This document shows positions 41 to 8,996 of a stretch of 45,790 bases of DNA, piece after piece. Each line of letters opens with the position of its first letter. Positions within the stretch are counted from its first letter, which is position 1. Under the pieces are notes generated by a model, which saw only the letters and a program-made list of their open reading frames with translations, did not search any database and had not been told where the DNA came from. This DNA is from Sphingomonadales bacterium (GTDB lineage Bacteria; Pseudomonadota; Alphaproteobacteria; Sphingomonadales; Sphingomonadaceae): assembly GCA_947470185.1 (NCBI GenBank), contig CANIRZ010000013.1:1-45790 (forward strand), given 5' to 3'. The position numbers were made by a program, and so were the translations under genes.

Positions 41-1291
41 ATGCCTAAATTCACGTTTAATTTGCCTGACATTGGTGAAGGGATCGCCGAGGCCGAAATC
101 GTTGCCTGGCACGTCAAAGTTGGCGACATGATTTTTGAAGACCAGCGTTTGGCGGATATGATGACCGACAAGGCCACCGTTGAGATGGAAAGTCCGGTTA
201 CGGGGGTTGTCACCAAAGTGGCGGGCGAAGCCGGCGATGTGATCGCAATCGGAGCAATGCTTGTTGAAATTGAAGTCGCTGGTGAGGCAAAAGCGGAAGT
301 TGCCGAAGCTACGCCACTCGCGCCAGAGCCCGCGGCATCCATCGTCGAGGATGAAATTCCGCACGCGCCGGAACCCGTTTCCGTCGCCGAGGTCAAACCA
401 GCACCTGCTGCACCTGCTGCTGAGGCATCAGGCAAGGTCACGGCGTCGCCAGCCGTCCGCCAGCGTGCCAAGGAGCTTGGCGTGGATTTGACTGACGTCA
501 AGGCGGCAGGCGGGCATATTCGGCATGCTGATCTCGACGCTTTCCTGTCGTACGGAACGCAGATGGGCTATCGCCCAGCGCACGCAACTGCGCGGCGCGC
601 GGATGAGGCCGTTAAAGTCATCGGCATGCGGCGCAGGATTGCCGACAATATGGCGGCGTCGAAACGACATATTCCACATTTTACCTATGTCGAAGAAATT
701 GACGTTACTGCAATCGAAGCCATGCGCGCGGATTTGAATGCCAATCGCGGAACGAAGCCCAAGCTCACCCTGCTGCCGCTGCTCATCGTGGCTATCTGCA
801 AGGCCATTCCGCAATACCCGATGATGAACGCACGGTTTGATGACGAGGCTGGCATTGTCACACGGCACGGCGCTGTGCATCTGGGCATGGCAACGCAGAC
901 TGATGCTGGGTTGATGGTGCCTGTTATCCGCGACGCGCAAGACCGCAATATTTGGCAGTTGGCGACTGAGATCACGCGCCTTGCCGAGGCAGCGCGCAGT
1001 GGATCGGCCACAAGCGAAGAACTGTCGGGTTCAACCCTAACGATCACATCGCTGGGCGCGCTCGGTGGCATTGCCACTACCCCAGTGATTAACCGACCAG
1101 AGGTCGCCATCATCGGACCGAACAAGATTGTCGAACGCCCTATGTTCGTTGGCGACCGTATCGAGGCCCGTAAGTTAATGAACCTATCGATCAGTTGCGA
1201 CCACCGCGTTGTCGATGGCTGGGATGCCGCAAGCTATGTTCAGGCGTTGAAGAAACTTGTCGAGACGCCCGTTTTGCTGTTCGCCGACTAA
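41..1291 (+). CDS. bkdB: Dihydrolipoyl acyltransferase, E2 of branched-chain 2-oxoacid dehydrogenase
   Basis: A 416-aa E2 acyltransferase. It carries acyl groups on a lipoyl arm from E1 to CoA in oxidation of branched-chain keto acids. Residues 1-78 form one lipoyl domain with the lipoylated lysine at K44 in the DKATVE motif. An Ala/Pro-rich linker (about 80-130) leads to a peripheral subunit-binding domain (about 134-169). The catalytic domain (about 190-416) ends with HRVVDG, where H388 and D392 are the expected active-site pair. The N-terminus (FNLPDIGEGIAEAEI) fits the branched-chain type better than pyruvate (LMPALSPTM-like) or 2-oxoglutarate (VPALGESV-like) E2. AGGA lies just before the ATG. 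Its stop overlaps the convergent stop of the next gene by four bases. Confident as E2, less so for substrate. Confidence 0.9.
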   Translation: MPKFTFNLPDIGEGIAEAEIVAWHVKVGDMIFEDQRLADMMTDKATVEMESPVTGVVTKVAGEAGDVIAIGAMLVEIEVAGEAKAEVAEATPLAPEPAASIVEDEIPHAPEPVSVAEVKPAPAAPAAEASGKVTASPAVRQRAKELGVDLTDVKAAGGHIRHADLDAFLSYGTQMGYRPAHATARRADEAVKVIGMRRRIADNMAASKRHIPHFTYVEEIDVTAIEAMRADLNANRGTKPKLTLLPLLIVAICKAIPQYPMMNARFDDEAGIVTRHGAVHLGMATQTDAGLMVPVIRDAQDRNIWQLATEITRLAEAARSGSATSEELSGSTLTITSLGALGGIATTPVINRPEVAIIGPNKIVERPMFVGDRIEARKLMNLSISCDHRVVDGWDAASYVQALKKLVETPVLLFAD

Positions 1292-4200
1292 AATTTGTAT
1301 CCGGGCAAGCTTGTCTGGTCGAATTTCATTTTGAACGTCAAAAACGGTCCTGAACGGCTGTAGCGGGCCAGTTCAAAGTCGCGGTCTTCAAAGCCAATGA
1401 TGTTGTAGCCAATTGTTATGTTTGCGTTGGTAAATGGTGCAACAGTTAGAACGGGACCAACGGCGTACGCTATATTATCCCCACTGCTGCCGATCCTGAC
1501 CGTGCCCGTTAATCCTATGTCTGCAACATTGCTGATGTCGAATTTGAAATCACCGCCAAACACGTTGCTCCAGCCGCGAATATCGTCGGTTCCAAAACGG
1601 TCGGTTGCGTAACGCGTGCCCCAGAATACGGCATATTCGCCGCGCTCGACAAAGCTGCTTTCATTTTGGCGTATTGGCGTGAAGTTAACAGACAAGCTGT
1701 TGATCACGCGGCGGGCTGTGGCGTCGCCATTAACATTCAGCAAGGCGTTGCCAACTGGTCCAGCGTTGCCGGCGACCGCGCCACGCACGGCATCATAGCG
1801 AAATTCTGTCTTATTCAGTAAGGACCACGCGCTGTCGCCGGGACGATAGGCCCAGCTGATTTCGGCTTGCGCCGTTGTCGTTCGTGCACCCCCGTCTTCT
1901 TTTGCATTCAGCCAGCTGAGCGCGCCGCCAACGGCACGGCCTGCACCAATCTGACGCAGGACAGCAGTAGTGACGCCATAGCGTTTGTTGGTCTGTCCAT
2001 CACGCGTCTCAGCGCGGCCTGTCCAGCTCCATTCGGTGCCTCGGTAGGTTGCGCCACCCGTAATCGCGGTAAAGTCCTCTGTGAGGGCTCCACGCGTCCC
2101 CAGAAAGCCCCCGGAGGCCAACGGTTGATCTGTGTCGACCACATCAGCAGAATTTACCCCGCCAATGGTCTTGTTGCCATCCAGTGTCAGGTCCACCGAC
2201 CATTGATCCGTAATCCGAAATGACTGGGCAAGACCATATGCGGCATAGGTGCGGGGGCCGTATTCGGTCATATGTTCTTGATTGGCGCTGGCAAGCACGC
2301 GGCCACCCGCCCAAGGGGCAACATCGAAGCCAACCCGTGCAGTGCGCGCGTTAATATTTTCACCCTTGGCGATTTCATATCCTGCGACCAAGGCCATGCC
2401 GGATTTAATCTGATAGCGCGCCGAAACATTGTGGCGGGCAGGGAAGTCGATGCTCTCGTCCTTGCCGATCAATGCGAACTCGGTCTGCGCTGAAAGCTCA
2501 AGCTTGTCTTCAAGTAGCCGTTGTGAAGCTCCAAGGCGCGCGAGCGTGGATTGGTTCGTTGTGCCATCTGATAGTGTATCACGCGCATGGGTCAGCCCGG
2601 CGCGGAACGTTGTAGTATCGGCGCGATACTCCACTTCGGATATAGCTGCGCGCCGAAGTGCATCGCTGGCAAAAAATTCTTCCTGATAGGCAATCAGGGA
2701 TGCCGCGAGCTGTTCGGTCAGGCGTACGCGGCCATCGACGCCAAATTTTCGTGTTCCGACTTCGGAACGGTTCTGCTGCCCAAGCCCAAAGCCTGCTCCC
2801 TGTTCGCGGACATAGGTCAGAACGTCGAAACGTTCGTCATGATGCTCCGCCTCAAGCAGCCATGATGTTCGGTTGCCGGCGCCGTTTGCCGCGACAGCGG
2901 ATTGAGCTTGCGAGCGTGACCCTGCAAATTCAGCGCGAATTTCAGTGCCTGTTCCGGGACGATAGATCACATCAGCGCCCAATAGGTTGGTTTTGCCAAT
3001 GTCGCTTTCGTCATGGATGCCGGTCGCTGCAATCTGCAGCTTTTCGTCGTCGCTCGTCCAACGCACGCGGCCGCCGGCATTGGCCACCCGCTTGCCAACG
3101 CCGTCGACTTCATATTCGGCGATGATGAATTGTGGATCAAGACCACTAGAACGCGATAGTATCGGCACACGAAACCGCAGGCTGCCCGATAGATAATCAA
3201 TGTCATAATCAATGTGGCGGATGAGGACCTTGGTTTCGATGATGCGATCCGACCGAAGCCGGTCCCGCGTTTCGATACGGACATGCTCAGTATTCGCAAT
3301 GATGTCGCGCGCGCCGAGCATATATGGACCTGAAAGGCCATTGCCTTGAATTTCGTCGCGACGATAGCGGGTGGGCGTGTCCGAACCAAAGGCAGTCGCC
3401 TGAATCGCGCGGTTGCGATATTCGGCCTTCACACCATTGAAGGAGCGCTGATATCGGGCAAGTTCGGGCGCATCAATGCCCGTCTGGTAATCGCCAAACA
3501 GCGCGTAGAACTGCGGCCTTTCAAGTTTAAGATATAACCGACGAACAGAGGCTGCGTCATATCGTTGATCGGTGCCGTCAGCATAAACCGTGTAATAGCG
3601 GCGTGGGTCAATGGTCCCTGCAAAGCGGGTCTCGTCCTCCTTCTTGTCGCTGTCATATGCCATGGTCATCAGCCATTTGCCGCTAACACGGCCCTTGGCG
3701 TACAAAGCGATGCGGCCGTCGACGTTCAGTGGGGCATTGTCGCCTGCTAGATCCTCAAGACCCTCTTCAAGCTTGTTGAAGCCTATGGTTCCTGCGGCAA
3801 AGCCAACGACAGTCCAGGGACGGTCGCCCGGATCAAGCCATGTTTCAACGCGTTGCTCCCGACGCACTTTGCCATCGGTAAAGTTAAAACTTATCGCAAC
3901 CGTGCCTGACGCAGTGGTGGGCTCCAATTCGATATATGCAAGGCCATTGTCGCCATGGACGCGCCAAACGGGTTCTGCGCGTTCAAGCCCAGACAATTGG
4001 TTGGCTTGTTCCGCGTCGACCTCAACAGCGGGGCGGTAGGGGTCTGAAACCTGAAAAGCGCCGACCGCGCCATGTTGCACTGGCTTTCCTGCCCGGTCGG
4101 TCAGGCGGACCACGATGCGAGGCCGTGTCACGCCGTCCGCAACAAGGATAGAATGTTCCTTGATAAACTGTGCCTGCATTGGGGCGTGTGCAAAATACGT

Positions 4201-6375
4201 GCGGCGTTCGAGCGTCTCCACCACATTACCATTTGCGTCCTTAATCAGGGCCACAAGCTTGTTTTCGCCATCGTCGATGTCGACGCCACGCCATATGGCT
4301 ACGCGTATCTGTCCATCGGCGCTCTTCTTTACGCCATCAAAGTTCAGCGCGCTGATTGCTTTGCCGTTCACTTTAAGTTCGACAGTCTGCCCTGCGCGAT
4401 GTTTTACAGCGATACGGATGGACTTTACGCGCGGATTCTGGTCAATATCGGGATAGACAAAGCCCGTGCCGGGTTCTTGCCCGGTTAACCAGTCACGCTC
4501 AGCGCCCGCAGCTTGCGGGTCAGTGAGAACGGGTGGGAGCGGTGTAACAGATTTGCCAGTTTCGGCGCGGGGTGCGGTTGTTTTTGCACGGAAGTCAGCG
4601 CGCTTCAACGTTCCGCCACTGCCTTCTACAAAACGTGAAATTGCACTGCCTGCGCTGCGCGTATTATCGGCACAATCAACGGGTGCTTGGTTAAGCGGAA
4701 AGCTGCTTGGATCAACCTGTACCACGTGCAGGCCAGGGATAAGACCCTCGAAATGGTAACGGCCGTCCTTATCGGTGACGGTATATGTGCCGTCCTCAAG
4801 CATGACACGCACGCCCGCGATGCCCTTGGCCAAGCGCGGGTCAACAGTGCATCCACCATCGGTGATGCGACCGACCACACTGAACCGCTCGGAGATCCCG
4901 TCTTTGACGATGCGGATCGGGGCATCAACGGTGGCGCTTTGGGTGCCGCGACTGTCTATTGCAGTGGCAAGGTTGACTGCATTGCCGGGACGCGCGTCTT
5001 GCCGAACTTCTGCCAGATAGGTCAGCAACCCTAAGCCGCCACCGGGAAGCGAGGGAACTGTTATCTCAAAGCGGCTGGCATCAGCTGCAATTTTCGGGGT
5101 TACGGGAGCGCCCTGATATTTAATGCTGCCCATACGCAGGCGCAGCGCGGTCGGCAGTTGATCCGTGATAGTTACTTGTCCGGACATGCGGCCACGATCT
5201 GGGTTTGTTATTGTTATCCGATATTGAACAATATCGCCGGGCATGGCGGTTACCGTGGATGTTTCTTTGCGTAACATGAGCGCGCTACCAGGCCGGTCAA
5301 GCGGGATGTCGACGCGAACAGGGGCCGGGTCGTCCAAGACAATCGGGGCGCCATAAGAGTTTTCCGTAATGACAAAGCTACCCCCATCGGGCCGAACCAA
5401 AGCCTCTAATTCAGAAGGCGTTGATCGCGACGGGAAACTAAATGGGGCAGGGGGCGTGACTAATAGTCGATAGGTCCCCCGACGTAAAAACGGAAATCTG
5501 TAAAATCCCGGGGTAAATACATATACCGTGCCATTGGCATCTGTGACAGTCGACCCTGTAATGATACTGTTTGGGTAGGCAGATACGCCATCATCCCCAA
5601 AAACGTCTGCAGGTCGTCCTGTTGAAGCGTCGACGATCGTTATGCGCGTTCCGTCAATAGGAACGCCGTTGCCGCTGTCAAATGCGACACCGAAAGGATC
5701 GATTAAGATTTCGACTTTTGCATGCGCAACGGGTGCGCCGCTGGCGATATCATCAAGGTCGACATCAATCGTATCGCCAGGGTACACAGATAACGCGCAA
5801 TCGCCGATTGCCGGCGTCGGCGGAACAGCTTTGGTATTAATGTAACCAATGAATTTGGCGCTGTTTGAAGTGTCCTCTGTAAACGAGATTCGTTCGCGGT
5901 CGCCCTTCGACGTTGCGACTAAGGCATCGAATGTGTCGATTGCGGCTGGATTTATGTTTTTCGATGCTGCGGTGACGCGAATGATAAGCGGTTCGCCAGC
6001 GCGAATGGCTGTTGTCTGTAAAAGGCTCGCTGCAGCCAATTGCGTGTCGGCATAAGCACCACCTAATGTCATTGGCACGCGGCCTGCGGTGCCGGTACAC
6101 ATGGTCTGGGGAAGGGCATGCGTCGTCGATCCCGCACTTTTTGTTAGGCGGAATAAGGAAATGCTTGCAGAAACAGTAGCTGCTTCAACTACAAACCCTA
6201 CCGTATTTGAGTTGATGGACTGTCGCCCATAACCTGTATCCCATTGAGCGGACGCGGTATTTACAATGGACGCAGGAGCATTTTGCGCAATCACGCCGGT
6301 GCCGCCAACAGGGAGAAACAACCCTATCACCAACATCAGCACTACATTTTTGAGATATTTGGCTAAGCTACCCAT
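1288..6375 (-). CDS. Giant DUF11 / outer-membrane beta-barrel surface protein (1695 aa)
   Basis: A 1695-aa exported protein. Residues 1-30 are a signal peptide. Residues 34-66 match the N-terminal module of the two smaller genes upstream (NTASAQW...SNTVGFVVEA pattern). A DUF11-type conserved-repeat domain lies at about 365-485, a carboxypeptidase-regulatory-like beta-sandwich at about 498-556 (TVTDKDGRYHFEGLIPG), and Ig-like or invasin-like segments at about 640-840. From about 850 to the end the sequence is rich in alternating aromatic and polar strands and stops at a terminal Phe (LPGYKF), as outer-membrane beta-barrels do. I infer a large barrel with an N-terminal beta-sandwich array. No catalytic motif or TonB box was recognised. 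It is third in a minus-strand group, 47 bases after the 358-aa gene. No clear Shine-Dalgarno precedes the ATG. Function unknown. Confidence 0.8.
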   Translation of the reverse strand: MGSLAKYLKNVVLMLVIGLFLPVGGTGVIAQNAPASIVNTASAQWDTGYGRQSINSNTVGFVVEAATVSASISLFRLTKSAGSTTHALPQTMCTGTAGRVPMTLGGAYADTQLAAASLLQTTAIRAGEPLIIRVTAASKNINPAAIDTFDALVATSKGDRERISFTEDTSNSAKFIGYINTKAVPPTPAIGDCALSVYPGDTIDVDLDDIASGAPVAHAKVEILIDPFGVAFDSGNGVPIDGTRITIVDASTGRPADVFGDDGVSAYPNSIITGSTVTDANGTVYVFTPGFYRFPFLRRGTYRLLVTPPAPFSFPSRSTPSELEALVRPDGGSFVITENSYGAPIVLDDPAPVRVDIPLDRPGSALMLRKETSTVTAMPGDIVQYRITITNPDRGRMSGQVTITDQLPTALRLRMGSIKYQGAPVTPKIAADASRFEITVPSLPGGGLGLLTYLAEVRQDARPGNAVNLATAIDSRGTQSATVDAPIRIVKDGISERFSVVGRITDGGCTVDPRLAKGIAGVRVMLEDGTYTVTDKDGRYHFEGLIPGLHVVQVDPSSFPLNQAPVDCADNTRSAGSAISRFVEGSGGTLKRADFRAKTTAPRAETGKSVTPLPPVLTDPQAAGAERDWLTGQEPGTGFVYPDIDQNPRVKSIRIAVKHRAGQTVELKVNGKAISALNFDGVKKSADGQIRVAIWRGVDIDDGENKLVALIKDANGNVVETLERRTYFAHAPMQAQFIKEHSILVADGVTRPRIVVRLTDRAGKPVQHGAVGAFQVSDPYRPAVEVDAEQANQLSGLERAEPVWRVHGDNGLAYIELEPTTASGTVAISFNFTDGKVRREQRVETWLDPGDRPWTVVGFAAGTIGFNKLEEGLEDLAGDNAPLNVDGRIALYAKGRVSGKWLMTMAYDSDKKEDETRFAGTIDPRRYYTVYADGTDQRYDAASVRRLYLKLERPQFYALFGDYQTGIDAPELARYQRSFNGVKAEYRNRAIQATAFGSDTPTRYRRDEIQGNGLSGPYMLGARDIIANTEHVRIETRDRLRSDRIIETKVLIRHIDYDIDYLSGSLRFRVPILSRSSGLDPQFIIAEYEVDGVGKRVANAGGRVRWTSDDEKLQIAATGIHDESDIGKTNLLGADVIYRPGTGTEIRAEFAGSRSQAQSAVAANGAGNRTSWLLEAEHHDERFDVLTYVREQGAGFGLGQQNRSEVGTRKFGVDGRVRLTEQLAASLIAYQEEFFASDALRRAAISEVEYRADTTTFRAGLTHARDTLSDGTTNQSTLARLGASQRLLEDKLELSAQTEFALIGKDESIDFPARHNVSARYQIKSGMALVAGYEIAKGENINARTARVGFDVAPWAGGRVLASANQEHMTEYGPRTYAAYGLAQSFRITDQWSVDLTLDGNKTIGGVNSADVVDTDQPLASGGFLGTRGALTEDFTAITGGATYRGTEWSWTGRAETRDGQTNKRYGVTTAVLRQIGAGRAVGGALSWLNAKEDGGARTTTAQAEISWAYRPGDSAWSLLNKTEFRYDAVRGAVAGNAGPVGNALLNVNGDATARRVINSLSVNFTPIRQNESSFVERGEYAVFWGTRYATDRFGTDDIRGWSNVFGGDFKFDISNVADIGLTGTVRIGSSGDNIAYAVGPVLTVAPFTNANITIGYNIIGFEDRDFELARYSRSGPFLTFKMKFDQTSLPGYKF

Positions 6376-6422
6376 AATATCTTGAGCGGTGACAGCTTAT
6401 CTGCCCGCCGCCCCCTGACCCC

Positions 6423-7499
6423 TTAATTTATGGTTGCCTGGAAAATGAGGGCTCTGGAATTGCCGGCTTCGATATCCGACAACGATCCTACGACTGTGTT
6501 TGCCGGTGTTCCAAAGCTTCCACCGGCTGTGCCTCCGCTGCAACTTTGGCCGGTGCCGGGCGTGGTCACTGTGCCATTGACCTTGATCGAACCAGACACG
6601 AAAGTTGTGGTCGTCGGCAAAGTGTCGGTGATGCTGATGTTGGTCGCCGTGGCGCCGCCGGTCGCATTGGTGACAGAGATGCAATATTCCACGACGGCGC
6701 CGGGGATAGATTTATAATTGCTTGCGCTCACACCGTCACTGATAATCCGGCTGCTTTTGGTAACGCTTAGTAATGCAGTGGATACCGTGAAATCGTCAGT
6801 TGCAACGTCAATCCCGTCGCGCGCGGCAGATGTGCCACCAACGCCAGATTTTGCTGTATCCGCAAACACGGTTTCAACCGTATTCGCGCCGTTCACAGTC
6901 GAGTCATTGACGGAGGTGATTGCGCTCCCATTACTTTCAAGAGCCGTTGCTGTAAGCTCTACGCCCGCGATATGGCCGTTGGTGGCCGTTGCAGGGACAT
7001 TGCCAACTGCAAAAACATAGCGTGATTGGTCAACACCCAAATTGTCAATCGATGTCGCCGTATCGGTAGCTGGTTCGTAAGTGCCATTGCCATTCACATC
7101 GACAAAAAACGAGAACGACGTGAGGTCAAATGCATCCTGACCGTTATGGGCCACATTTGTCGAAGACGCCTGTTGAACCGCTGCGAGGCTAAAATCCAAA
7201 ATATCGTTCGATGTGTTTGTAAGCTGGAACCGCGCCACTGCTGCAACTTGTCCAAGGCTGACGGTGGTCGTGCCAATGGTCGCCGCCTCAACCAAACTAA
7301 AGTTGATTTTCCGGTCGACCTTAAATGTGTCCGTCGCGGTAATCTCCGTCTGTGGGGTGCCTCCGGTTTGATAATTAACCGTCACGACAGCAGAAATCTC
7401 GGAACCCGGAGCGGTACCACCAGCAATAGCAGGCGTAGAGCTCAGTATTGCTAGCGGTATTGGTGTGCAGGCGGCGAGTAGTTTAAGTGGTTTGGTCAT
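6423..7499 (-). CDS. Secreted DUF11 domain protein (358 aa)
   Basis: An exported 358-aa protein with a signal peptide at about 1-26 (cleavage after PAIA). The mature N-terminus carries the beta-strand module also seen in its two neighbours. At 131-147 there is a Ca-binding-like loop (FFVDVNGNGTYEPATDT, acidic or amide positions D134, N136, N138, D146). A DUF11-type domain fills about 245-358, recognisable by the motif for a tensed thioester-free beta-sandwich: PGAVVEYCISVTN followed by ITDTLPTTTTFVSGSI. It has low charge and many Thr, Ser, Ala and Val residues, typical of surface beta-proteins. The closest relative in the window is the 343-aa gene upstream. It probably forms an operon with both neighbours. 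I cannot assign a molecular function. Confidence 0.82.
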   Translation of the reverse strand: MTKPLKLLAACTPIPLAILSSTPAIAGGTAPGSEISAVVTVNYQTGGTPQTEITATDTFKVDRKINFSLVEAATIGTTTVSLGQVAAVARFQLTNTSNDILDFSLAAVQQASSTNVAHNGQDAFDLTSFSFFVDVNGNGTYEPATDTATSIDNLGVDQSRYVFAVGNVPATATNGHIAGVELTATALESNGSAITSVNDSTVNGANTVETVFADTAKSGVGGTSAARDGIDVATDDFTVSTALLSVTKSSRIISDGVSASNYKSIPGAVVEYCISVTNATGGATATNISITDTLPTTTTFVSGSIKVNGTVTTPGTGQSCSGGTAGGSFGTPANTVVGSLSDIEAGNSRALIFQATIN

Positions 7500-7630
7500 C
7501 GCTTAAAATTTCTGTCAATTTGTGGAATTGCGTTTGGACCGTCGCAATTGAACGGTTCTCGGGATGATCTGAAATACCCTAAGGGAAATATAGTTTACGG
7601 CTGCACACCCGCTTTTTTTAGCGTGCGTAA

Positions 7631-8662
7631 TCATTGAATAACGACCTTGAAAGTAACGGTCCGCGTCTCCCCAGCAGGAACATTGCCTGCCGTGACCGAA
7701 ATGCGCGCGCCATTGAACGCACCTCCGTCTGCATCAACTGCATCGGTTAATGCTATCGCTGCGGCTACTGAATTTTGAAGCGTTATGGATCCCGTTTGAT
7801 AGGCCGTGCCAACGGGAATTGGGTCGGTAATGACAAGGTTGCTAACCGCACCTGATCCCGTGACTGTTGCCACCAATTGATATGTCACAACCGCTCCGGG
7901 TAGAGGCCGTTGCCCGCCGAACTGGTCTACAATCGCGGCGGATTTGACGAGGGTTAAAGCGGTCGATTGCACCACTAAAAAGCTATTGGCTGAGCCATCC
8001 CCGCCCGTTGAACCGACGACAGCATTGCCGCCGCCTTGGCCTAGTCCTGCGAACGAAGTGCCCGGTGCGCCCACGCCAGTGACAGCTTCAGCAGTAAGGC
8101 TGACGTTGCCTCTGGCACCGTTCGTCTGGCCTGATGGGGTTGAGGTTATGACAAACACCGTCTTACTTTGGTCTGGCGCTATAATCGGATTATTGGAACC
8201 AGCGACGTAAACAGTATCAACGCCGGCATCATATGCGCCGTTATTGTTGCTATCGATGATGATCTGTTGAAGCGTTGGATCAAAATCGTTGCCGCCATTT
8301 GCGGTGTTGACGGTAAGGGCAAATGCTTCGTCACCATTGCCAGTGTTCGTCACGCGGAACGATTGGACGTTTCCTGTTTTGCCAGGGCTCGTGATGACAT
8401 CGCCGGCGTCTGTTTTCGCCACCGTTGCGTCGAGTAGTTCGTCTACCTTGATCGATAGTGTATTGGACGTGAGGGTAGCTGGGCTCCCAGCCACCTCAAA
8501 AGTTGCCGTTGCTATATTTTGGATATCAGTGCCTGCGACTGTGCCTGCTGCAAAAGCCGGCACGCTTGCAGACAGCATAAGAAGCGTTCCGCAGACCTGC
8601 GTCTTTTTCCCAAGACGAACCGCGCGCCTGAGGGCCGGGTAGGCTTCGAAATTACTTTTCAT
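7631..8662 (-). CDS. Secreted DUF11 domain protein (343 aa), first of the cluster
   Basis: A 343-aa exported paralogue of the next gene. The signal peptide is long (about 1-38, ending VPAFA) with a basic n-region containing LRRAVRLGKK. The mature start (TDIQNIATATFEV...SNTLSIKVDEL) is the module shared by all three cluster proteins. A D-x-N-x-N-G loop lies at 137-149 (DSNNNGAYDAGVD), matching the loop of the 358-aa protein. A C-terminal DUF11-type domain covers about 230-343 (LPGAVVTYQLVAT, ITDPIPVGTAYQTGSI). Its last residues (ETRTVTFKVVIQ) parallel the end of its paralogue (NSRALIFQATIN). It heads the minus-strand group behind a dyad-rich intergenic region. The role is unknown; a surface or matrix component is inferred. 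Confidence 0.82.
   Translation of the reverse strand: MKSNFEAYPALRRAVRLGKKTQVCGTLLMLSASVPAFAAGTVAGTDIQNIATATFEVAGSPATLTSNTLSIKVDELLDATVAKTDAGDVITSPGKTGNVQSFRVTNTGNGDEAFALTVNTANGGNDFDPTLQQIIIDSNNNGAYDAGVDTVYVAGSNNPIIAPDQSKTVFVITSTPSGQTNGARGNVSLTAEAVTGVGAPGTSFAGLGQGGGNAVVGSTGGDGSANSFLVVQSTALTLVKSAAIVDQFGGQRPLPGAVVTYQLVATVTGSGAVSNLVITDPIPVGTAYQTGSITLQNSVAAAIALTDAVDADGGAFNGARISVTAGNVPAGETRTVTFKVVIQ

Positions 8663-8919: not shown

Positions 8920-8996
<77 letters not shown>

Follow-up and report, generated by a model that had tools for sequence, protein, structure and literature searches.

Three adjoining minus-strand genes on a contig of a Sphingomonadales bacterium (GenBank assembly GCA_947470185.1, CANIRZ010000013.1, positions 1 to 45,790, the 45,790 nucleotides referred to here as the window) are best read, to judge by sequence comparison, as encoding parts of a surface fibre in which split DUF11 (CLIPPER) domains would be completed by hairpins donated from other subunits, with junctions that are probably covalent and with one end on the largest of the three proteins. 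We put the probability of this reading at roughly 0.55. The genes are called small1, small2 and BIG; in relatives a fourth, mid, usually stands between the first two, and an unlinked tip-like protein, tip, accompanies them. The contig that makes up the window, G000:C13, belongs to a 1.48-Mb genome that is 63% complete. An earlier note on the same DNA had proposed that the small proteins assemble with, or are displayed by, BIG: assembly remains the best reading, and display by BIG is something we infer.

7631..8662, minus strand: small1, 343 amino acids (aa), exported DUF11 subunit with signal peptide, donor hairpin, middle domain and hairpin-less C-terminal DUF11
8438..8548, minus strand: N-terminal donor hairpin of small1, residues 39-75, the conserved Asn being Asn49
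7634..7978, minus strand: C-terminal DUF11 'acceptor' of small1, residues 229-343, with Lys240 and Asp280
8228..8254, minus strand: D-x-N-x-N-G-x-Y-D loop in the middle domain of small1, calcium-like by its motif
6423..7499, minus strand: small2, 358 aa, exported DUF11 subunit and paralogue of small1
7308..7424, minus strand: N-terminal donor hairpin of small2, residues 26-64, with Ala37 at the conserved Asn position
6426..6785, minus strand: C-terminal DUF11 'acceptor' of small2, residues 239-358, with Lys248 and Asp292
7074..7100, minus strand: D-x-N-x-N-G loop of small2
1288..6375, minus strand: BIG, 1695 aa, predicted outer-membrane protein with donor hairpin, complete DUF11, SdrD_B-like and immunoglobulin (Ig)-like regions and a large C-terminal beta-barrel
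6178..6288, minus strand: N-terminal donor hairpin of BIG, residues 30-66, with Asn39
4903..5286, minus strand: complete in-cis DUF11 of BIG, residues 364-491, with Lys370, Asp405 and Asn468
4672..4830, minus strand: SdrD_B-like domain of BIG, residues 516-568
1291..3825, minus strand: C-terminal region of BIG, about 845 aa, predicted outer-membrane beta-barrel
7500..7630, no strand: gap of 131 base pairs between small1 and small2, where the mid gene (about 158 aa) stands in relatives; mid is absent here and in genome G006

A shared hairpin and a truncated DUF11 domain

The counts that follow come from 71 full-length loci, loci L033-L041 and the window, 81 in all, of which 80 are distinct; the duplicate (L038, on the same contig as L073) is left out of residue, order and motif counts and kept in the profile, joining and 81-locus counts. 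The gene-family models were built from the same loci that are counted, that of mid from 32 seeds, with 78 members then found. That the three proteins begin with one similar module, as the earlier note had claimed, is borne out by profile-profile comparison, with E values of 1.8e-9 between small1 and small2, 2.5e-9 between small1 and BIG (36 columns) and 4e-6 between small2 and BIG; on repetition with other settings the corresponding values are 2.3e-12, 9.4e-13 and 4.4e-8. The alignments hold 79-81 sequences each (78-80 distinct loci, with the one duplicate locus included), and the N-terminus of mid, serving as control, gives only 0.17-0.79 against the hairpins. Profiles were needed for the BIG hairpin because pairwise BLASTP could not show it: between single sequences of BIG and the small1 module there are 14.2 bits (E 31, not significant), and DUF11 alone is detected between BIG and the small proteins. 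In small1 and BIG the consensus is I-x-N-x-A-x-A-x-(Y/F/W) ... S-N-x-V ... V, and in small2 it is I-T-N-T-V-x-V-x-Y ... V-D-R.

Is this module a domain in its own right? The homology stands, but the module is not a stand-alone domain: it resembles the final hairpin of a DUF11 domain, detached from the rest. Aligned to the 129-column DUF11 of BIG, small1, small2 and mid each have a C-terminal domain that covers columns 1-97 and stops at column 97, and the part that they lack is the final hairpin. In the BIG DUF11 this final hairpin starts with N-x-A-x-A (Asn in 79/80, the two Ala in 71/80 and 54/80), and N-x-A-x-A or N-x-V-x-V is also found in the N-terminal hairpins. A terminal-hairpin model made from 13 DUF11s of tip proteins, chosen by pattern, finds its best place in the chain at the N-terminal hairpin in 35/79 small1, 51/80 small2 and 46/80 BIG sequences (for BIG, within the N-terminal part), the numbers being 9, 11 and 11 after shuffling of the hairpin letters; the equivalent model derived from BIG does so in 32/79 small1 and 23/80 BIG (shuffled, 6 and 11). 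When small1 acceptors are joined to the BIG hairpin, the score under the BIG DUF11 model rises by a median of 5.7 bits (0.8 for shuffles), and in 67/80 the real hairpin scores above all 5 shuffles. The tip row of this joining test and a set of 51 'tip' frames were mixed with BIG and cut frames and were not used. DUF11 itself is recognized by TIGR01451 (NCBIfam, cut-off 24) in small2 (48.0 bits), small1 (31.3) and BIG (28.0), and by Pfam DUF11 (PF01345) above cut-off in BIG alone of the three.

DUF11 was renamed CLIPPER in 2025, when, as described in PMC12617251, a crystal structure (9IFR) displayed an isopeptide bond between Lys-715 and Asn-806 with Asp-748 nearby. A profile of 28 BIG DUF11 sequences matches 9IFR with an E of 3.8e-6; the Lys and Asn of BIG align to residues 91 apart, as are Lys-715 and Asn-806, and the aligned Asp lies 34 residues after the Lys by our count, versus 33 for Asp-748 in that paper. 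Within the complete DUF11 of BIG the three residues are almost invariant (Lys 79/80, Asp 80/80, Asn 79/80). In the small proteins they are kept just as strictly, and on opposite ends of the chain: the acceptor has both Lys and Asp in 79/79 small1 and 80/80 small2, and the hairpin has the Asn in 77/78 small1 (one hairpin of fewer than 16 letters was dropped from the 79) and 79/80 small2, with 80/80 for the hairpin of BIG. Fifteen distant small proteins, read by eye, have Lys in 15/15, Asp in 15/15 and Asn in 14/15. The bond-forming domain thus appears to be divided over the two chain ends of small1 and small2, and since Lys and Asp are in the acceptor and Asn is in the donor, the junctions between subunits would be expected to be covalent. 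Matters differ in mid, where the column taken as Lys has Arg in 35, Lys in 27 and Glu in 7 of 78 and where Asn replaces Asp in 75/78, though some far mids keep the Asp.

Two further features of the small proteins may be mentioned. The small2 acceptor (6426-6785 in the window) has two cysteines, one present in 80/80 and the other in 72/80, which suggests a conserved disulfide. The matching D-x-N-x-N-G loops that had been pointed out in both small proteins of the window hold less well across their families, a loose form of the pattern being found in 67/79 small1 and 44/80 small2 orthologues.

A possible fibre and its rivals

On reading the chain ends, BIG has a donor only, small1 and small2 have a donor and an acceptor, and mid and tip have an acceptor only, and a chain with tip, shaft and anchor is proposed because these donor and acceptor counts fit it. 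The subunits would be exported by Sec. As shaft subunits, small1 and small2 would each offer an N-terminal hairpin and an open C-terminal DUF11, the donor of one completing the acceptor of the next in a head-to-tail polymer. The open DUF11 of the tip would receive the hairpin of a small protein, whose own DUF11 would receive the next, and so on until the hairpin of BIG closed the last acceptor, with the barrel as the outer-membrane anchor of the fibre and possibly also its exit pore; BIG is placed last because it has a donor hairpin and no open acceptor is visible in it. Completion of each junction would lead to a Lys-Asn isopeptide bond between subunits with no need for a sortase, rather like a natural SpyTag/SpyCatcher. 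The acceptor-only proteins, mid and the P-domain tip, could cap the opposite end or guard free hairpins, and mid, which has the fold and lacks the conserved reactive pair, is a candidate reversible guard or non-covalent cap. The sequences themselves show the domain boundaries, the homology of the three hairpins, the conserved residues, the gene order, the co-occurrence and a single insertion site; from these we infer hairpin donation in trans, the Lys-Asn bond, the polarity of the fibre and a role of BIG as pore. The more ambitious version, that of a widespread, sortase-free, self-ligating, pilus-like fibre of Pseudomonadota which leaves through or ends on an outer-membrane barrel of about 30 strands that also donates the closing hairpin, and whose adhesive tip is an unlinked P-domain protein, so that a new secretion and assembly class would stand beside chaperone-usher, falls somewhat short of even odds in our estimation.

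A number of results weigh against the fibre. Direct profile comparison of the hairpins with the DUF11 of BIG gives no match, and with the DUF11 set of the tips only weak ones (E 0.03-0.19). The BIG-derived terminal model does not place the small2 hairpin above chance (11/80 against 21/80 when shuffled), and under the tip DUF11 model small1 acceptors score lower once a hairpin, whichever it is, has been joined to them (medians -1.0, -4.1 and -0.6). Profiles of the truncated domains match 9IFR poorly (small2, E 0.17) or not at all (small1). The small2 of the window is itself the sole exception among the 80, with Ala for the hairpin Asn, and in two of seven distant BIGs Ser stands for that Asn, the other five keeping it. 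The window locus does without mid, and mid may have another job, since five of the sampled genomes have it in the absence of a full-length BIG and since an unlinked paralogue exists. On the side of the fibre, a Foldseek search with small1 lists a TasA donor-strand fibre (8aur), with probability 1.00 and E 0.012 at rank 25, and CLIPPER (9ifr), with probability 0.97 and E 0.054 at rank 49, but integrins lead the list (E 3e-5) at a template-modelling (TM) score of about 0.2, and these fold matches are for that reason unspecific. The single-sequence small2 acceptor of the window, compared with the PDB, gives one row (E 1.6) and nothing convincing. SEC6, the first-ranked PDB match of the small2 profile (E 0.0035), was rejected as unrelated.

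The strongest rival could hold for small1 and small2 themselves: these might be circularly permuted, monomeric CLIPPER proteins, each folding its hairpin onto its own DUF11 with an intramolecular bond, and be separate secreted or surface proteins. It has in its favour, and to the detriment of the fibre, that a single chain carries both halves and that in the small1 monomer model a low-confidence stretch of 34 residues lies between the N- and C-terminal parts. Neither does co-variation single out hairpin-acceptor pairs, another point on that side: what first looked like specific co-variation was removed by a same-gene control, the small1 hairpin giving 0.23 with the middle domain and 0.23 with the acceptor and the small2 hairpin 0.33 and 0.43, so that co-variation within the same gene is about equal. 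Closure in cis would nevertheless leave the hairpin of BIG surplus, since the DUF11 of BIG is already whole and has its own Lys, Asp and Asn, and the acceptors of mid and tip without a hairpin, so that these three chains could not be satisfied in this way; donor-only, donor-acceptor and acceptor-only proteins are, moreover, clustered and co-occurring. We consider it unlikely.

Two other alternatives appeal to us less. Hairpins might be exchanged in trans without any isopeptide bond, the Lys, Asp and Asn being kept for packing; mid, which retains the fold with a varied Lys column and with Asn for Asp, shows a relative managing without the residues, but the near-invariance of all three on two chain ends in small1, small2 and BIG makes such a non-covalent donor-strand fibre a little less likely again than cis closure. 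Alternatively, the hairpin could be no more than the first two strands of the domain that follows, with the DUF11 of the small proteins a stable shorter variant and the cluster a set of co-regulated surface proteins. The hairpin has a predicted local distance difference test (pLDDT) score of 81-86 in the AlphaFold2 (AF2) monomer model of small1, and is packed on something there to judge by that score, as this alternative would have it. Set against it, the hairpin is homologous in BIG although no relationship can be detected for what follows it (E 0.15-0.18 against the middle domains of the small proteins, which match each other at 3.2e-24, small1 and small2 being homologous over about 300 residues with 30% identity and E 6e-26), the three acceptor families end at one DUF11 column, and the hairpin Asn is almost as invariant as the acceptor Lys and Asp; we regard this as improbable. 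A fibre that ends on BIG, probably covalent, is the reading that we prefer.

Predicted anchor, candidate cap and tip, and the spread of the cluster

The barrel of roughly 850 residues that the earlier note thought probable in BIG is still predicted, at low confidence: the last 590 or so residues have 30 predicted strands in a model of mean pLDDT 48.7, which was used for class only (barrel or not), and among the best 50 PDB rows of a Foldseek search with it 45 are, by their titles, membrane beta-barrels. No Pfam family exceeds its cut-off over the barrel (OMP_b-brl is sub-threshold in 2 of 10 members, best E 0.0042) and the autotransporter and intimin barrel families have no Pfam match there; a weak match to Big_1/Invasin_D3 lies near residues 735-770. 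The barrel region has 30-34% identity to three far relatives, and 46 and 63% to two sphingomonad ones. The one distant BIG that was scanned (L183) has an OmpA domain (E 1.2e-9) between the SdrD_B-like domain and the barrel, which suggests that this middle part is periplasmic; the Pfam scan of the window BIG gave no OmpA match. A terminal Phe, also remarked upon earlier, is present in the window and is not conserved (10/80 orthologues). Shorter open reading frames (ORFs) of about 1,240-1,490 aa at L144-L150 (e.g. G036:C1:2350603-2351424 and G307:C1:1765668-1766618), lying beside other long ORFs, share some 250-300 residues of the BIG barrel region at 30-35% identity and possibly belong to another barrel-anchored system.

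A protein of about 158 aa, acceptor-like and without an N-terminal hairpin, mid is present at 78/80 loci, between small1 and small2 in the usual cluster. The window genome has a mid paralogue on a separate contig (G000:C4). Such an unlinked paralogue, near an aconitase-like gene (by eye), is found at L193:6510-7073 and L199:5149-5724, in the window genome and G036, both BIG-bearing. In G101 mid (L198:7710-8177) sits without BIG at the insertion site described below, the other three genes gone, and in G399 (L194) it is beside trp-like genes, again without BIG.

All three tip proteins scanned (from L106, L186 and the window genome, there at G000:C8:6130-8103 on another contig) have the P-domain PF01483, and in two of them DUF11 is above cut-off, found twice. 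By eye, they have a hairpin-less DUF11 at the C-terminus and no hairpin at the N-terminus. Several short frames (about 310-330 aa) that lie close together and have N-terminal and acceptor parts of tip type (G009:C62, G016:C1:198679-199536, G033:C135) look like a varied tip set. Giant DUF11 proteins of 2,060 and 3,898 aa in genomes with a distant cluster (L185:5308-11490 and L191:1277-12973) end on an apparent strand and are candidate long tips. An extra neighbour of this tip kind, with a weak small2-type match and often of 640-800 aa, lies downstream of BIG at 33/81 loci and upstream at 4, part of these frames being cut or marginal in score.

The co-occurrence implied by the earlier description of a three-gene system was found. 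Of 61 genomes (the window's own, 36 of the genus and 24 of the order), 21 have BIG, and these 21 all have small1 as well, with one additional small1 match of 26 residues in G017. This last (G017:C50:68907-68984) is to the first 26 residues of small1 at 69% identity, in a genome without the cluster, and is a remnant or a shared signal peptide. A tip (E<1e-20, away from the cluster) is present in 18/21 genomes with BIG and 0/40 others; the remaining three of the 21 give matches at small2 or weak ones only, and two of the 40 have weaker matches (5e-9 and 2e-4). The order small1-mid-small2-BIG holds in 77/80 distinct loci, the exceptions being the window and G006, without mid, and L040 (from a Burkholderiales metagenome-assembled genome, by its title), without a small1 match. 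The nearest named records with the cluster are from Sphingorhabdus, Sphingopyxis and other Sphingomonadales.

Across 296 genomes of the order there is a barrel match in 76 and, by our count, a full-length BIG in 70, after exclusion of two fragments and of hits to a shorter family (frames of 1,179-1,520 aa). In 397 genomes of the phylum BIG was matched in 51, of which the 26 whose barrel is nearly full-length are taken as having BIG; mid (E<=1e-10) is in 29, both are in 24, and mid is in 5/371 others, with profiles of mid and BIG that contain sequences from the sampled genomes. In five other families of the phylum, eight loci (L183-L186, L195-L197 and L200) carry mid together with BIG and between one and three small proteins, and L186 and L196 retain the small1-mid-small2-BIG order. 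As a rule the system comprises four genes and, away from them, a tip-like protein, and it occurs in other Pseudomonadota.

In the window the cluster lies between two features that are outside the system and border its insertion site.

41..1291, plus strand: lipoyl acyltransferase E2 (by eye), left border
8920..8996, plus strand: tRNA-Asp, right border

In 8/8 relatives without BIG that were compared, out of 10 genomes searched, E2 adjoins tRNA-Asp and the cassette is wholly absent; the comparison omits G017 (no close E2) and G024 (E2 split over contigs).

Comparison with known systems

Chaperone-usher pili are made of incomplete Ig-like subunits, each completed by an N-terminal donor on the next, with a donor-less tip and a large outer-membrane barrel. 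The small proteins seem to follow the same principle, an incomplete Ig-like fold with an N-terminal donor, and the likeness would be one of analogy and not of homology: here the donor is a hairpin, the anchor BIG itself bears a donor and the bond is predicted to be covalent. Neither chaperone nor usher families of pili are among the Pfam matches of BIG, small1 and small2 (E up to 1) or of mid and tip (E up to 0.1). Engineered tag/catcher pairs such as SpyTag/SpyCatcher are isopeptide domains, of CnaB type, that have been split into pieces which rejoin covalently, whereas the split here would be a natural one, would affect a CnaA-like domain and would serve to build a fibre.

The closest relative by family is the CLIPPER domain of the fibrillar adhesin B9T28_05395, the protein of 9IFR, which has the same Lys, Asn and helper Asp in a finished domain, all in one chain with the bond intramolecular (PMC12617251). 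It differs in that here the last hairpin is at the chain N-terminus and the domain is open, the complete fold being found only in BIG 364-491. The TasA/TapA fibres of Bacillus resemble the present case in having an accessory protein, besides the Foldseek match to 8aur; as far as the available parts of the two accounts go (PMC9674648, PMC10151520), they are Gram-positive, have neither DUF11 nor a barrel anchor, and use a strand and not a hairpin, and TapA donates its N-terminus, while mid has no donor. There is no Pfam or NCBIfam match to the camelysin-type family in BIG, small1 or small2, so that this is a likeness of fold only. In the archaeal thread of Saci_0406, donor-strand complementation is combined with a proposed intermolecular isopeptide bond and no sortase is known, in the available text of PMC9715654; the bond proposed there links the side chain of Asn57 with an N-terminal amino group that lies two subunits away, and the conserved pair here consists of Lys and Asn side chains in a DUF11 domain. 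DUF11 repeats are present in the anchor protein of F-ENA, in the accessible part of whose description nothing is said of split domains (PMC11952670). A link to type 11 secretion was dropped, the paper concerned (PMC12282271), in the text available, having matched on the string 'DUF1194'.

The earlier note's remark that no system of such shape had been described agrees with a literature search, covering few subscription papers or preprints, that found no split DUF11/CLIPPER fibres. If the proposal is true, the donor-strand principle is at work in an outer-membrane fibre whose components are unrelated to the known ones and which has a covalent lock of its own; truncated DUF11 domains acquire a function, the short DUF11 proteins beside a giant barrel in about a quarter of the sampled genomes of the order (70 of 296) are explained, protein engineering gains natural tag/catcher pairs, and a cluster of nameless proteins becomes a testable system. 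Donor-strand fibres, CLIPPER bonds and a covalent archaeal thread were already known, and there is a real chance that the present system merits a class of its own.

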